Below are positions 14,735-47,185 of a stretch of 64,000 nucleotides of DNA, one piece after another; position 1 is the first letter of the stretch; every line of letters begins with the position of its first letter. A program made the translations under genes and the position numbers. The stretch is from assembly GCA_002070185.1 (NCBI GenBank), contig MWCT01000006.1, positions 129,001 through 193,000 of the forward strand. Reading direction: 5' to 3'. Source of the stretch: a candidate division BRC1 bacterium ADurb.Bin183 (GTDB taxonomy: Bacteria > Sumerlaeota > Sumerlaeia > MWCT01). The notes under the pieces were generated by a model. The model made no database searches. It saw only the letters and a list, made by a program, of their open reading frames with translations, and was not told the origin of the DNA.

Positions 14735-16645
14735 TTATTTGTTGATTCCGAAAATGCGGAGCTTTTTATCAAGGGTCGGACGGGATATGCCCAAAATCTC
14801 TGCCGCCTTTTTCTTTTGACCGTTGGCTTCATCCAACGCATGAAGAATCATTTGTTTTTGCGTCAGGTCTGTAACGCTCGAAAGAAGCCCGCCGGATTTG
14901 GAAAGCCCCTCACGCTCAGGAAATGAAGTCTGAACACGTATCCGATCCGGCAGATGCTGCTCGTCAATCAAATCCTCTTCCGTCAAAACCGCCATCTGCT
15001 CGAGGACGTTTCGCAATTCACGGACATTCCCAGGCCAGGTATAGGCAAGAAACGAACCGAGCACAGCGGAGGAAAACCGAAAGTTGCTCGGACGGCGCAG
15101 CGCAATCTGGATATTATCAAGAAAATGCTCCGCCAACTCCGGTATATCCTCCAAACGTTCCCGCAACGGCGGCACGGCAATCTCAATAGTGTTGATACGA
15201 AAAAATAAATCCTCTCTGAATTGCCCCTGCTTGACCATCGTCGGCAGATTTTTATTGGTGGCAAAAAGAAAACGCGCATTTGTATGAAGCGTTTGAGTGC
15301 CGCCCACGCGCATGAATTCCCTCGATTCCAAAACCCGCAATAACTTCGCCTGCATGAATAACGGCAGCTCGCCAATCTCATCAAAAAATATCGTCCCATT
15401 CTGAGCCAATTCAAATTTGCCCGGCTTGGAACGATATGCCCCTGTGAAGGCGCCCTTCTCATGGCCAAAAACCTCGGCTTCAAACAACTCAGGCGGAATG
15501 GAAGAACAATTCACGGCAATTAACGGTCCATCGGAAGCGCCGCTTTTTTCGTGAATTATCCGCGCCACAATCTCCTTGCCGGTGCCCGTTTCTCCTGTAA
15601 TCAAAATGTTGACAGGCTGCGCCGCCACCTGCTCGATTAATTTTTGCAGTTTCGCAATCGCATCGCTGCCCCCGATAAAGGCGTTGTCAGAATATTTATG
15701 CGATGCGACGCTGCTGGGCGCTATAATTGCCTGCATGCACGTAGAGGCAACCGAAGGCGCTAAATGATTTGCCAATACAGTCAAAAACGTGAGGGCGTTT
15801 TTCGAGAAAACATTGGGGCGTTTTGAGCCTAAAGCTATCAATCCAACAATCTTGCCTTCGTGAATGAAAGGCACAGCCATCTGCGAAGCCGGCATATCCC
15901 TCGGTATCTTCGTGGAATCTCCCTTCTCCATACGATCAAATATATTGTGAATCAAAACCCCTTTGCGCTGCATCAAAGTGGATTGAAGAATTTCAGAAAG
16001 GAAAAGCGTCTTTTTCTCTTTGGAAAAAATGACAATCGGCTCGTAATCATCCAGCCGAGCAAGACAAAAAACCGCGCTATCCGCATGAAATAGACCCATC
16101 AAATGCTTTGTCACACTGCGAAAATGGGGCGTTTCCTCGCCCTTCTCGCGGGAAAGCGTCAAAATATCTTGAATTGCCTGAAAATCATCTGGAGTCAGCA
16201 TATCGGTGCGGACATGGTCCGGTATGCTGATTTCATCAAAAAAGGAAACCGCCGCTGTGGATACTGTGACAAGGAAATGAGAACCGCCCCGTTCTGCCGC
16301 CATGCTCTGAGGATAATCCACCGATAAAAAGGTCTCCCCAAGCAACAGCACATCGCCATGCTTCACCCATTCATCGTCCATGATGCGCTTGCCGTTCAGA
16401 AAAACGCCATTCTTGCTCCCCAGATCCCGCACGATTAATCCGCTTTTGATTGGGCGCACAATCAGATGATATCGAGATATTTTGTTATCTTCAATAACAA
16501 AGTCGCAATCACTGGAACGTCCAAGAATGCAAGGCTCCTGAACCTTAAAACGCTTCCCACCGCCTGCGGGAGTGATCACCTGCAAACAGGGATACGGCTC
16601 CCCAAACACAAACCCTTCTTTTATGCTGTCTTTGTCATTAACCAT
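14735..16645 (-). CDS. FHA-GAF-sigma54 activator (AAA+)-Fis transcriptional regulator
   Basis: A 636-residue bacterial enhancer-binding protein. An N-terminal FHA domain has all phosphothreonine-binding marks: GRSSDCDFV (42-50), SRYH (57-60) and LGSKNG (75-80). A GAF domain covers about 155-310. The sigma54-interacting AAA+ domain has Walker A GETGTGKE (351-358), the sigma54 contact loop GAFTGA (398-403) and Walker B FFDEIGEL (420-427). A Fis-type helix-turn-helix ends the protein ([16 protein letters not shown]). It should activate sigma54 promoters when the FHA domain binds a Thr-phosphorylated partner. No Ser/Thr kinase gene is in view. It is transcribed divergently from the ECF sigma gene. 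Confidence 0.93.
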
Positions 16646-42585: not shown

Positions 42586-42979
42586 AATCCCCCCTCCGAG
42601 TCTAACATTTAATTACGAAAGAACCTTAACGACCCCCTTTGGGCTGCGCAAGCAAAAAATTCAAATGATGCATTTTATTTTGCCGCATACAACTTCATCC
42701 CATGGTTGAAATCATTCTACACACTAACAATATCTTGATGCATCAATGACATATGCCGCGAAATAAAAAATGTGCGAGATTCTGCATTTGTGCGAAAAAC
42801 CGCACGGCTCTATGTTACCCTCATAACCCGAAAGCGTCACAACATATTCATCAATATGACACAAATATTTCGCAACTGTATTATTATCAATGTTTAAGGT
42901 ATGCACCGCCCCTATGCGCCGATTTAGGTATGTATATTGCTCAAGTATATCATCACCTAATAAAAAAAGGACGATAATC
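42586..42979. other. Intergenic region before the sigma factor gene
   Basis: A 394-base AT-rich stretch between two divergent genes. Short frames in it have no ribosome-binding site or recognisable product. It should hold promoters in both directions, but I see no convincing -35/-10 pair, operator or RNA gene. Confidence 0.4.
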
Positions 42980-43807
42980 ATGAACAATTATGATGAGAGT
43001 GTCCAGTTCTACATGAAGGAAGCCGCTTCCTATCCCATCCTTTCACGTGAAAAGGAAATAGAACTTTTTCAAAAACTCGAAGACGACGACCAGTTTGCCT
43101 TTGAGGATATTGTAAAACATAATCTGCGTTTCGTCATCAACGTCGCCCTCCATTACAACAACCGCGGCGTCCCGCTCTCAGACCTTATACAAGAAGGCAA
43201 TATCGGTCTCCTTGAAGTTGTTCGCAAATATGACTGGCGCAAAGGTTATCGTTTCTCCACCTATGCTTCTTTTTGGATTCGCCAATCAATACAACTGGCG
43301 CTTCGCCGGCACAGCTCTCTCATAACGCTTCCCATTCGTAAATCGCGGCTCATCGGAAAAATTTCCGAAGTCATTTCCGCATTCACAAGCGAGCATGGTT
43401 TCGAACCCTCCGTTGAAGAAATCTCAAAGATTATGGACATCAAAGTCGAGGTCATTCAACAAATGCTCAAACTTCGTGAAACCGTCCTTTCGCTCGATCA
43501 AACAACTGACGAAGATGGCATCCCTTTGATGGAGCGCATACCCGATACACAAAAAAAGTCCCCATTGCAATACTGTATGGAAAATCAAACACGCGTCAAA
43601 ATCGCCGCCCTTTTCAAACACCTCAACGAAAAAGAGCGCAGAATAATGAACCTGCGTTTTGGTTTCGAACATGGTAAAACGCTTAGCCTCCGCAAGACAA
43701 GCCGTCTTGTGGGCTTAAGCCAAGAAGGCGTCCGCCGCATTGAACGCAAAGCCCTTTCAAAACTCAATCGCCCCGTCTTCCGGGAAAAACTGGAAGCCTT
43801 GCTTTAA
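42980..43807 (+). CDS. RNA polymerase sigma factor, sigma70 family (group 2/3, RpoS/SigA-like)
   Basis: The ATG at 42980 follows AAAGGA and gives 275 residues. Region 1.2 (DESVQFYMKEAASYPILSREKEIELF), region 2 (LRFVINVALHYNNRGVPLSDLIQEGNIGLL and YRFSTYASFWIRQSIQLAL), region 3 (LPIRKSRLIGKISEVISAF) and region 4 (LNEKERRIMNLRFGFEHGKTLSLRKTSRLVGLSQEGVRRIERKALSKL) are all present. The long N-terminal 1.1 region of the housekeeping factor is missing, so this is an alternative or second primary-like factor. It is monocistronic with its own terminator. The regulon is unknown. Confidence 0.92.
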   Translation: MNNYDESVQFYMKEAASYPILSREKEIELFQKLEDDDQFAFEDIVKHNLRFVINVALHYNNRGVPLSDLIQEGNIGLLEVVRKYDWRKGYRFSTYASFWIRQSIQLALRRHSSLITLPIRKSRLIGKISEVISAFTSEHGFEPSVEEISKIMDIKVEVIQQMLKLRETVLSLDQTTDEDGIPLMERIPDTQKKSPLQYCMENQTRVKIAALFKHLNEKERRIMNLRFGFEHGKTLSLRKTSRLVGLSQEGVRRIERKALSKLNRPVFREKLEALL

Positions 43808-43832
43808 TCTTTTACATACATCACAAGATTTT

Positions 43833-43862
43833 AAAAAGCGCGTCCCCGCGCGCTTTTTTTTA
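43833..43862 (+). terminator. Rho-independent terminator after the sigma factor gene
   Basis: AAAGCGCG (43835-43842) pairs with CGCGCTTT (43849-43856) and runs into a stretch of T. It lies 27 bases after the stop codon. Confidence 0.88.
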
Positions 43863-43923
43863 TAACCAGAGTCCATCGTTTCTTCAATTGCTCAAATAAT
43901 TTATTCAATCAGGCGGGACTGGC

Positions 43924-45942
43924 TCATGTCGAATCAACCGTTTCTGATTCCGAGTCGCCGGCATCGAACATCGTCTCCGGCGCATCCTCAAAAATTGTGG
44001 GAGGAGCCTCGTCAATAATCGTCTTCTGATCTTCCACAACCGTCTTCAAATCTTCAATGATTGTCTTGTCATCTTCGATGATGGTCTGACGCTCTTCAAT
44101 GACCGTTTTCTGCTCGTCGAAAACCGTTTTCTGATTCTCAAAAATTGTTTGCTGATCCTCGTGCACGGTGGGTTGAGGCTCCATCGGGGTGGGAGGTTTC
44201 ATGCGGTCGGAAAGGAGGGGGAAACCCTCGCCGCGGCGGTTTTTCGCCATCTGGTCCAGCGTCTTTTTCTGGCGGGATGGATAAGGTTTTAAAAGATTTT
44301 GAATCCGCTCTTCAGCGTCCTTGTATCCCTCATGAATGCTTTGGATTTTCTGATAAACTTCAAGAGCGCGGGTGATGTTGCGATTGCTTTCCAACGCCCG
44401 CGCATAAGTGTAGAAGATTTCAACATTTGATTCCACCGGCTTGAGGTTATGAAAAACACGCTCATACGCCTCAGCCGCAAGATGAAATTTATCCATCTCA
44501 TAATAGCAGGAGCCTAATAAAAGCATGGCTTTTTCATAAACCGGTTCAGCCTGAGTGATGAAACGAAGCTTTTCCGCCGCCCCTTCAATATTACCCTTTT
44601 GCTTTTCCAACAGCGCAAGATAATAAGGATTGCCGGCTTCCGAAAGGCATCGAGCGGCTTTATCATTCATTCCCAGCTGTTGATAGATTTCCGCCGCCTC
44701 TGTCAGACTGCCCGCCGCCTCATATAACTCCGCCGCCTTATAAAAATTTCGAGCAAGCGAATATTGGTTGGCAGCTGCCAGAGGGCGATTCATCAGTTCA
44801 AGACAGTGCGCCTGCGCCGCCGGATCGTTCAGGCGATGATACATCTCAAAAGCCTTCGGCAAATCCCCCGCCTGTTCAAAAAACGATCCCGCCTTGCGGA
44901 AATCACCGGCTTCAAGCGCAATTTGCGCGTCCATGCGGCAGACTTGCTTTGTATCATTCATCTTCTCATAACACTCGCGGGCTTCTTTCCACATCTCTGC
45001 CTGTGAATATGTTTTCGCCGCATCCGCAATCCGCCCCTCGTTAATATAAAGACCAGCCGCCTTGTCCGCCATGCCGATTAATTCATAAGCCTGACGCGCC
45101 TCATGAGCGTAGCCCTGCGATTCAAAAATCTTCCCCGCCTTGCGGGCGCAGGTTTCTAACTCGCGGTCGGACGGAGCCGATTTGTCATAAAGAACCTTTT
45201 TTTGCTGGCTGGCGCTTCGCTCTTGCGCCGCTTTGAGGTAAAGCCGAGCCGCCGTTAAAAGGTCGCCGTCGCACTCATATGCCTCTGCTGCCCGTCTGGC
45301 ATAACCGCTCATTTCAAAAAAATCGCCCGCGCGTCTGTAAAGATGATTCTTCATAAGAATCTCAGCCGCAATCAGCGGCTTCCCCAAACCCGCCAATTGA
45401 TCCGCAGCTTTATTGATGCACGAAATTGTCGCCGCTCGATTATTCGTCTTTTTGTGGCACTCAGCTGCTGACTCAAATTTCTCCGCGTTCTCAAACATCA
45501 GAGCGGCGCGCATATATTCGCCCGCGGCGGAATAGGATTCAGCCGCCGATAAATAATCCTGAATCCTCTCATAACACGCAGCCGCCTGTTTATGGAGCCC
45601 CGCATTGGTATAATATGTGGCAGCCATGTCGCGCCTTCCCAGCATAACATCCCAGAACGCCCTTTTTGCTTGTTTGCGCTTATCTTTTGCCTCGCTGCCG
45701 CCGATGCCGTAAACCAGTCCGATAATTTGCTCAATCAGCCACCCGATAATCGTTCCCAACTTGGAAAGGATTATTTCCATCACAAGAAAATATAAAATCA
45801 CAGCAAGGGTATAGACAATGTAAACCTGCCAACCAATACTGTCGCTCAATTTCACAAAAAAATCGCGCGGCAGGTCTCGGTAAATGAATAAACCCAACGC
45901 CCCGATAATAATTAAACTGATAATGATACGCAAAAAACGCAT
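43924..45942 (-). CDS. Membrane-anchored TPR protein with C-terminal T-x-x-[DE] heptad array
   Basis: The ATG at 45942 gives 672 residues; a TTG 48 bases upstream is less likely. Two N-terminal membrane segments (about 4-24 and 40-70) anchor the protein. Residues about 85-560 are tetratricopeptide-like repeats (many A-x-x-YexAGxxxxAAxxYexxG units). The tail (about 590-661) has ten Thr in near-perfect heptads such as QKTVFDE, RQTIIED and LKTVVED, each with an acidic residue at +3. Acid at +3 of a phosphothreonine is a known FHA-domain preference, so the tail could be a multi-site FHA docking platform. This is inference. No kinase motif is present in the protein. Confidence 0.8.
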   Translation of the reverse strand: MRFLRIIISLIIIGALGLFIYRDLPRDFFVKLSDSIGWQVYIVYTLAVILYFLVMEIILSKLGTIIGWLIEQIIGLVYGIGGSEAKDKRKQAKRAFWDVMLGRRDMAATYYTNAGLHKQAAACYERIQDYLSAAESYSAAGEYMRAALMFENAEKFESAAECHKKTNNRAATISCINKAADQLAGLGKPLIAAEILMKNHLYRRAGDFFEMSGYARRAAEAYECDGDLLTAARLYLKAAQERSASQQKKVLYDKSAPSDRELETCARKAGKIFESQGYAHEARQAYELIGMADKAAGLYINEGRIADAAKTYSQAEMWKEARECYEKMNDTKQVCRMDAQIALEAGDFRKAGSFFEQAGDLPKAFEMYHRLNDPAAQAHCLELMNRPLAAANQYSLARNFYKAAELYEAAGSLTEAAEIYQQLGMNDKAARCLSEAGNPYYLALLEKQKGNIEGAAEKLRFITQAEPVYEKAMLLLGSCYYEMDKFHLAAEAYERVFHNLKPVESNVEIFYTYARALESNRNITRALEVYQKIQSIHEGYKDAEERIQNLLKPYPSRQKKTLDQMAKNRRGEGFPLLSDRMKPPTPMEPQPTVHEDQQTIFENQKTVFDEQKTVIEERQTIIEDDKTIIEDLKTVVEDQKTIIDEAPPTIFEDAPETMFDAGDSESETVDST

Positions 45943-46061
45943 GAAGAAATTTACCGATTGCAACGATTCGTTTAATAAAATTGAGAACAAAAGTAAAATC
46001 GCAGCGGATGCATGTCAATAGAAGAAAATCCCATCATCCCAAAAAGAAATACCCCGCGCGT

Positions 46062-46431
46062 TCACGGCTTATCATAAGAATAAATTTCCACGCCGGTAAG
46101 GATGACCCCGCCCATCTGATCCGAACGTCCGTCGCAGACATCAAAGTTATATCCAAATTGATTGTATAAACTCTCGTCCACATCCGCCGTTGAAGGGTCA
46201 TCCGCATAAAGCCGCGGCGCACTCGCCGCGTATCTGAAATAGAACGGCATTGTAATTATTATCCTTCAGCGTCTGCATAACCGCGCGGATATTGTTCTCG
46301 CAAGTCTCCTTGTCGGGGCTAATCCAGCCGTCAAATCGGCTCGCCCAACAAGCTCGCATCTCGGCGTCCGCCCCCCGTCCGCTAAATAAAAAAGAGCAAA
46401 ATAACAAAACAAAATATGCCATTTTTTTCAT
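46062..46431 (-). pseudogene. Remnant of a GHL10-type glycosyl-hydrolase-like gene joined to unrelated sequence
   Basis: The frame from 46431 encodes a signal peptide (MKKMAYFVLLFCSFLFSG) and the characteristic GHL10/DUF187 start (MRACWASRFDGWISPDKETCENNIRAVM, then NAVLFQIRGE). It stops at 46198 after 77 codons, where the family normally has about 400 residues. A second frame covering 46250-46062 (YADDPSTADVDESLYNQFGYNFDVC, then GVILTGVEIYSYDKP) continues over the break and reads like the end of a different protein. The likely history is a deletion fusing two genes. The start lies four bases after the lipoprotein gene upstream, so it is still in that transcript. Confidence 0.6.
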
Positions 46432-46435
46432 AATT

Positions 46436-47185
46436 CTACCGCTCCATTGGCAGAGCTTCGATAGGATGCGGATGGTCAAATTCCATATACTTTGCCCACA
46501 CCTCTTTCATCAAATCCGTGGTAGCCAACGCCACCGCTTCCATTGAAAGACGCAGGCAATATTTGCTTGAAGCAGAACGCGGATTTTTGCCCATATAGGA
46601 ATTGCCTAAATGATGGTATCGCATCACAAATGCCATAACATTGCCCTCGCCGAATGCCTCGCGAAGCCGACCCTCAACTTGCAAATCGCACCGCCCCAAT
46701 CCATACCCAATAAAATAACGCGCTAAACCGCTCCCTTTCCGAATTCGGGTCACAGCAGTTTCAAGAATTAAAAGACGCGGCTTGTTTTCTGTGTATAACT
46801 CAAGATTCTCCGTTTGAGGCATCTTCATATCAAAGTAATTTTGGCGCAAAAGACCGTGATAAAAATATTGCCTTAAAAAAACGCCCAGCTCCTTTTTCAA
46901 CGGCGGTTCAATGCCGCGCTCTTCCATCCATTCTACCGCAGCCACATAAACCATCTCCGGCGGCTTCAAAGTGTCTGAGGTAGGGGAGAGCCAAACCTTC
47001 AGGTCTTTATCGTTTTTATAATTAAACGAAATATCGTCGGAGATAAAAACAGGCGTCAAAGTTCGAGGGGTGCAAGATGCCAGCAAAAGCAATAAAAGCG
47101 CGGGATAATATATCGCATTAAAAATAAAAGGACGCCTTACTTGTTTACGAGGCGTCCTTGAAAAAATAAAACAAGATTGTTTCAC
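46436..47185 (-). CDS. Lipoprotein of unknown function
   Basis: A 249-residue protein from a GTG start. Its n-region is long and basic (TPRKQVRR) before a hydrophobic stretch and lipobox LLASC (Cys 38). The mature part (VAAVEWMEERGIEPPLKKELGVFLRQYFYHGLL, then RLLILETAVTRIRKGSGLARYFIGYGLGRCDLQVEGRL) looks like lipoproteins of the DUF4410 kind. The start has no ribosome-binding site, and a strong terminator-like hairpin overlaps codons about 9-19, so both start and expression are uncertain. It follows the OmpA-like gene by five bases. Confidence 0.65.
   Translation of the reverse strand: MKQSCFIFSRTPRKQVRRPFIFNAIYYPALLLLLLASCTPRTLTPVFISDDISFNYKNDKDLKVWLSPTSDTLKPPEMVYVAAVEWMEERGIEPPLKKELGVFLRQYFYHGLLRQNYFDMKMPQTENLELYTENKPRLLILETAVTRIRKGSGLARYFIGYGLGRCDLQVEGRLREAFGEGNVMAFVMRYHHLGNSYMGKNPRSASSKYCLRLSMEAVALATTDLMKEVWAKYMEFDHPHPIEALPMER
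47118..47159 (-). terminator. Terminator-like hairpin inside the start of the lipoprotein gene
   Basis: AAGGACGCCT (47128-47137) pairs perfectly with AGGCGTCCTT (47150-47159), loop 12 bases. On the minus strand the stem is followed by TTATTTTTA. It suits an intrinsic terminator of the OmpA-like gene that lies upstream, yet overlaps the reading frame of the next gene. Confidence 0.8.

Follow-up and report, generated by a model that had tools for sequence, protein, structure and literature searches.

A putative phosphothreonine docking array on a membrane-anchored TPR protein of a Sumerlaeota bacterium and its candidate FHA-sigma54 reader

Described phosphothreonine ligands of FHA proteins

The closest described system is known from Actinobacteria. 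PknG, a TPR-containing kinase, recruits the FHA regulators GarA and OdhI through a disordered segment with four phosphothreonine sites (PMC8546545). The protein studied here resembles PknG in the combination of TPR with a disordered multi-Thr segment, which in PknG anchors the FHA regulator. However, PknG is itself a kinase, its four sites are irregular and N-terminal, and its membrane link is made through a partner, i.e., GlnX (PMC8546545). The present protein lacks a kinase domain, has its own transmembrane (TM) hairpin, and carries ten regular C-terminal units with an acid at +3.

Three other cases are similar in part. TssL, an inner-membrane protein of the Agrobacterium type VI secretion system (T6SS), recruits the cytosolic Fha protein by a phosphothreonine (PMC3953482). 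It differs from the present protein in its single site, i.e., Thr14, and its place in a secretion apparatus, and it has neither an array nor TPR. In Cdc45, the adjacent pTxxD sites T189 and T195 bind the FHA1 domain of Rad53 (PMC6375734), and in MDC1, which is paired with NBS1, the SDTD motif is phosphorylated by CK2 (PMC8841529). In both, phosphothreonine motifs with an acid downstream lie close together in an acidic or flexible part of the protein. However, they are eukaryotic DNA-damage or replication proteins without TPR or membrane anchor, and they are unrelated by descent to the protein described here.

The sequence-only reading of this DNA had not known a phosphorylated tail that recruits FHA proteins at the membrane to be described in this form. 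The principle is already known from PknG and GarA/OdhI (PMC8546545), and the novelty lies in a membrane protein that lacks a kinase domain and bears a regular array. In the open-access literature searched, no kinase-less membrane TPR scaffold with a ten-unit array and a co-inherited FHA-sigma54 regulator was found, and neither were FHA-sigma54 regulators with phosphothreonine ligands. Few ligands of bacterial FHA proteins, especially of FHA-sigma54 regulators, are known. The window offers a defined pair, in which a natural candidate substrate with ten sites is inherited together with one particular FHA regulator.

The ten-unit array and its TPR scaffold

The array gene lies at 43924..45942 on the minus strand of the window, i.e., the whole stretch of 64,000 nucleotides that was analysed. 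Read from the ATG at 45942, it encodes a membrane-anchored TPR protein of 672 aa. The mechanical ORF is longer, 43924-45990 (-), with 688 aa from a TTG at 45990. The ATG, residue 17 of this ORF, is likely the true start, because the ortholog P0002 begins at the corresponding Met. Residue numbers of the array protein (P0001) are counted here from the TTG.

Three parts were recognized by Pfam search and in an AlphaFold2 model built on an eight-row alignment. The N-terminal membrane hairpin (45706..45942, minus strand; residues ~17-95) has two hydrophobic helices in the sequence, and the model predicts helices H2-39 and H55-94 in this region. The TPR superhelix (44281..45690, minus strand; residues ~101-570) matched Pfam TPR_6/SNAP, with pLDDT mostly >85-90. 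The remaining 118 residues, i.e., residues 571-688 (43927..44280, minus strand), form the C-terminal tail, and pLDDT was <50 across residues 580-688. The protein is accordingly modelled as a confident TPR superhelix with a disordered tail. As the earlier reading had stated, the array lies at the end of a membrane TPR protein.

The same scaffold is found in other members of the class. In the class-mates of family f6 (L003-L009), a TM hairpin, a homologous TPR superhelix and a Ser/Thr kinase domain follow each other in one chain. The array protein matched these TM-TPR-kinases with E values of 1e-41 to 2e-21 and 26-29% identity. A C-terminal Pkinase domain is present in L005, whereas no Pfam match to Pkinase was obtained in P0001 or P0002, which end in the array instead. 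The tail thus stands where the class-mates have their kinase, and the simplest reading of the sequence comparison is that the array has replaced the kinase. This reading follows from parsimony, i.e., from the layout and the best hits, and not from phylogeny; the tree of the array protein among the TPR-kinases gave no well-supported sister group (45/9). By analogy, the kinase-fused class-mates suggest a phosphothreonine context for the scaffold.

The array consists of ten T-x-x-[DE] units from T608 to D676 (43963..44169, minus strand). The Thr residues are T608, 615, 622, 629, 636, 643, 650, 657, 665 and 673. The seven-residue period that had been described was found, but with seven exact steps instead of eight, followed by two steps of eight. 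Asp or Glu occupies +3 in all ten units, as had been claimed, and no other residue type occurs there. The two hydrophobic residues said to follow each Thr were found in nine of the ten units, the exception being unit 1, TVHE, with His at +2. V, I, F, M and H interchange freely at +1 and +2, whereas Thr and the +3 acid are fixed. When the composition of the array was shuffled 20,000 times, no shuffle gave ten motifs or seven 7-residue steps, and the maxima were 8 motifs and 3 such steps.

A single ortholog was found, P0002, in a genome of another genus of the family (G002), with 37% identity. The search of genome contigs with the array protein as single query found no relative, and the search with the two-sequence alignment of the array protein and P0002 gave only JAFGFK010000072.1, Candidatus Sumerlaeota, i.e., the contig of G002. 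The array is accordingly known from two genomes, with ten units in the window genome (G000) and three in G002. The C-terminal end of P0002, KTILEDGKTVIEEPDTAIENPD, keeps the seven-residue step (KTILE-KTVIE-DTAIE; shuffle probability 1.3e-4), and Thr and the +3 acid are kept in 3/3 units. The search for the array in related genomes that had been proposed thus gave a conserved counterpart. When both proteins were pooled, the acceptor was Thr in 13/13 units and never Ser, and +3 was D or E in 13/13. At the DNA level, a pattern of three in-register units with 0 mismatches matched only the array gene in 386 genomes. With 1 mismatch, only the array gene and its ortholog were matched in the 39 class genomes, and the reversed-pattern control gave 0 matches.

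The tandem form, and the ten units in one genome against three in the other, could point to a low-complexity acidic spacer grown by replication slippage without specific function. This is very improbable, as the units are merely 75-80% alike in DNA, the Thr codons show silent differences in 31 of the 45 unit pairs with residue changes in 0/45, and the register is kept in P0002. Changes between units at +4 to +6 were mostly non-synonymous. Because the Thr codons diverged silently while the residue stayed constant, the Thr residues, together with the +3 acids, are under purifying selection and do not derive from recent slippage or duplication.

The period of seven, with a short helix that the model places at residues 643-656, where its confidence is low, also brings to mind a coiled-coil heptad segment for oligomerisation. 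Such a segment is hardly credible here, since the hydrophobic residues lie at two adjacent heptad positions and not at a and d, the last steps are of eight residues, and pLDDT is about 30-40. Coiled coil and slippage were both disfavoured on the heptad pattern, the codon divergence and the predicted disorder. Binding of an unphosphorylated partner was also considered. Each unit has a beta-branched T/V/I core, and T-[VI]-[IFV]-[DE] strands could act by beta-augmentation or self-assembly, with Thr chosen for its beta propensity. This is improbable, as the model shows no strand in a disordered tail, and the residues at +1 and +2 are swapped among V, I, F, M and H while Thr and the acid stay.

The FHA-GAF-sigma54 regulator in three family genomes

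The candidate reader of a phosphorylated array is an FHA-GAF-sigma54 (AAA+)-Fis regulator, assigned by Pfam at 14735..16645 (-). Its FHA domain is located at 16337..16528 (-), residues 40-103. The canonical residues R43, S57, R58, H60 and N79 are all present, in agreement with the earlier statement that the phospho-binding residues are intact. K55 lies two residues before the conserved Ser, and the Lys is kept in the G002 ortholog (DRKVSRYH). We take this to be the position of R83 in Rad53, two before the conserved Ser85, where Lys would presumably suit a +3 acid. However, a basic residue is found at the equivalent position in 19 of the 49 class FHA domains and is hence not distinctive, although K55 had looked like a specificity match to Rad53 FHA1.

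Among the 39 class genomes, G002 alone gave a strong match over nearly the whole length of the FHA-GAF part (E 2.5e-81), with E 1.9e-19 for the next-best genome. The two FHA-GAF-sigma54 proteins are 51% identical over 619 aa. The array protein and the full-length ortholog of the regulator therefore occur in the same two genomes, G000 and G002.

The third family member, G001, is the closer relative of the window genome by PNPase identity to G000, i.e., 81% for G001 vs 76% for G002. In G001, both the array gene and the FHA-GAF-sigma54 gene are absent, while the flanking genes are present. At the array locus, G001 has the OmpA gene and its ortholog of the lipoprotein gene 46436-47185, and the very next gene is the DnaJ-like one that in G002 adjoins the array gene. 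At the other locus, the OFOR-gamma and RpoE neighbours are present and the FHA gene is missing. Because the flanks of both loci are present, the joint absence is not simply a contig gap.

Background gene loss in G001 is low. About 12 other FHA or kinase genes common to G000 and G002 are all found in G001, and of ~22 further genes in the window that have an ortholog in G002, 1-2 are missing, i.e., MgtE and perhaps a methyltransferase. The probability that both named genes are absent by chance is accordingly ~0.1-1%, a figure that refers to one lineage of draft genomes with G001 90%-complete. Co-occurrence with FHA genes had been proposed as a check, and within the family the named regulator is indeed present or absent in the same genomes as the array protein. 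Against the species relationship, the two genes are kept or lost together, which is linkage and not binding. Their co-absence may stem from the loss of a pathway in which both took part, and need not point to binding.

The surroundings of the array gene showed further differences. The region 42890-46000 has undergone local rearrangement between the window genome and G001/G002. The sigma factor gene 42890-43807 adjoins a PgpA-like gene in G001 and G002 (L117, L121, L119, L161). In the window genome, the DnaJ-like gene is on another contig (C5), near a glycosyltransferase of the G001-like type. At 46198-46479 (-), a short reading frame without Pfam hit begins with a stretch similar to a signal peptide. 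We take it to resemble the start of a glycosyl-hydrolase-like protein; it lies between the array and lipoprotein genes and is apparently a remnant.

Possible writers and readers of the array

The best explanation, which we regard as plausible if somewhat short of probable, is a multi-site phosphothreonine docking array on a kinase-less membrane TPR scaffold, read by FHA and tuning an activator. A cellular Ser/Thr kinase would phosphorylate the ten T-h-h-[DE] sites wholly or in part. An FHA domain, in the most likely case the one of the FHA-GAF-sigma54 activator, would then dock on each phosphorylated unit. The number of phosphorylated sites would determine how many activator molecules are retained at the membrane, and the activator's transcriptional output would be tuned by this retention. 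We infer that the tail is phosphorylated and bound by an FHA domain, and likewise which protein is the partner and whether the effect is titration or activation.

The length of one unit, seven residues, is about one FHA footprint, as FHA contacts span about -3 to +3 (PMC6733907). FHA domains are specific for phosphothreonine (PMC3146460, PMC3953482), and the exclusive use of Thr as acceptor in both proteins therefore fits such a reader. The preference of some FHA domains for an acid at +3, on which the sequence-only reading relied, holds for yeast Rad53 FHA1 (PMC6375734), and Thr with an acidic +3 was found in 10/10 units and in 3/3 of the ortholog. However, the bacterial FHA ligands GarA, OdhI and DgcB have hydrophobic residues at +2/+3 (PMC6733907). 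With D or E at +3 in all units, the array departs from this bacterial type, and the appeal to an FHA preference is weaker than the sequence-only reading made it.

The T-x-x-[DE] motif is also a consensus of acidophilic kinases, and with acids at +4 and -3 it is the textbook form. Because of this, the motif may report the writer, i.e., the kinase, rather than an FHA reader. The tail would then be a multi-site kinase substrate or docking segment without FHA reader, in which charge added by a CK2-like kinase alters TPR or membrane contacts directly, or which recruits the missing kinase in trans; the class-mates with a kinase in the same chain at the tail's position agree with this. We consider it rather unlikely. 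A pure substrate should tolerate Ser, which is not seen among the 13 acceptors, and the co-absence with one FHA regulator would be left unexplained while the shared kinases stay.

A docking array read by the FHA regulator can be extended to a bolder form. The layout suggests that, on a conserved scaffold, a docking array took the place of a kinase domain. The regular ten-site array in place of the kinase would tether the FHA-sigma54 activator in a graded and multivalent manner, and would be the bacterial equivalent of phospho-repeat tails in eukaryotes, e.g., those of MDC1 and the RNA polymerase II CTD, acting on a transcription factor. This extended form seems doubtful as a whole. If true, it would be a bacterial case of multivalent phosphothreonine counting acting on transcription.

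The earlier reading depended on a Ser/Thr kinase in the same genome, and such kinases are present. Fourteen Pkinase matches were found, i.e., 13 above the Pfam cut-off and 1 below. A chain of 1190 aa on contig C3 (L047:402-3974, plus strand) begins with a complete Hsp70 domain and, after a middle region, ends in a Ser/Thr kinase, and similar proteins occur in G001, G002 and G004 (L113 in G004). A response-regulator receiver is fused to a Ser/Thr kinase on contig C1 (L054:3457-4866, minus strand), and KKTVFEGY immediately precedes the kinase. In G001 and G002, no ortholog of this fusion was detected.

The genome has nine FHA domains in eight proteins. An FHA-only protein of 119 aa on contig C2 (L066:3438-3797, minus strand) has the C-terminal end PKTIIFDEVEK, which is similar to one array unit. 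This tail was rejected as a related ligand, as it is not kept in G001/G002. A double-FHA protein is encoded on contig C6 (L060:4280-5623, plus strand), with ERTMIVDRTP between the FHA domains as a possible internal phosphothreonine ligand. It shares 83% identity with its ortholog in G001 and 73% with the one in G002.
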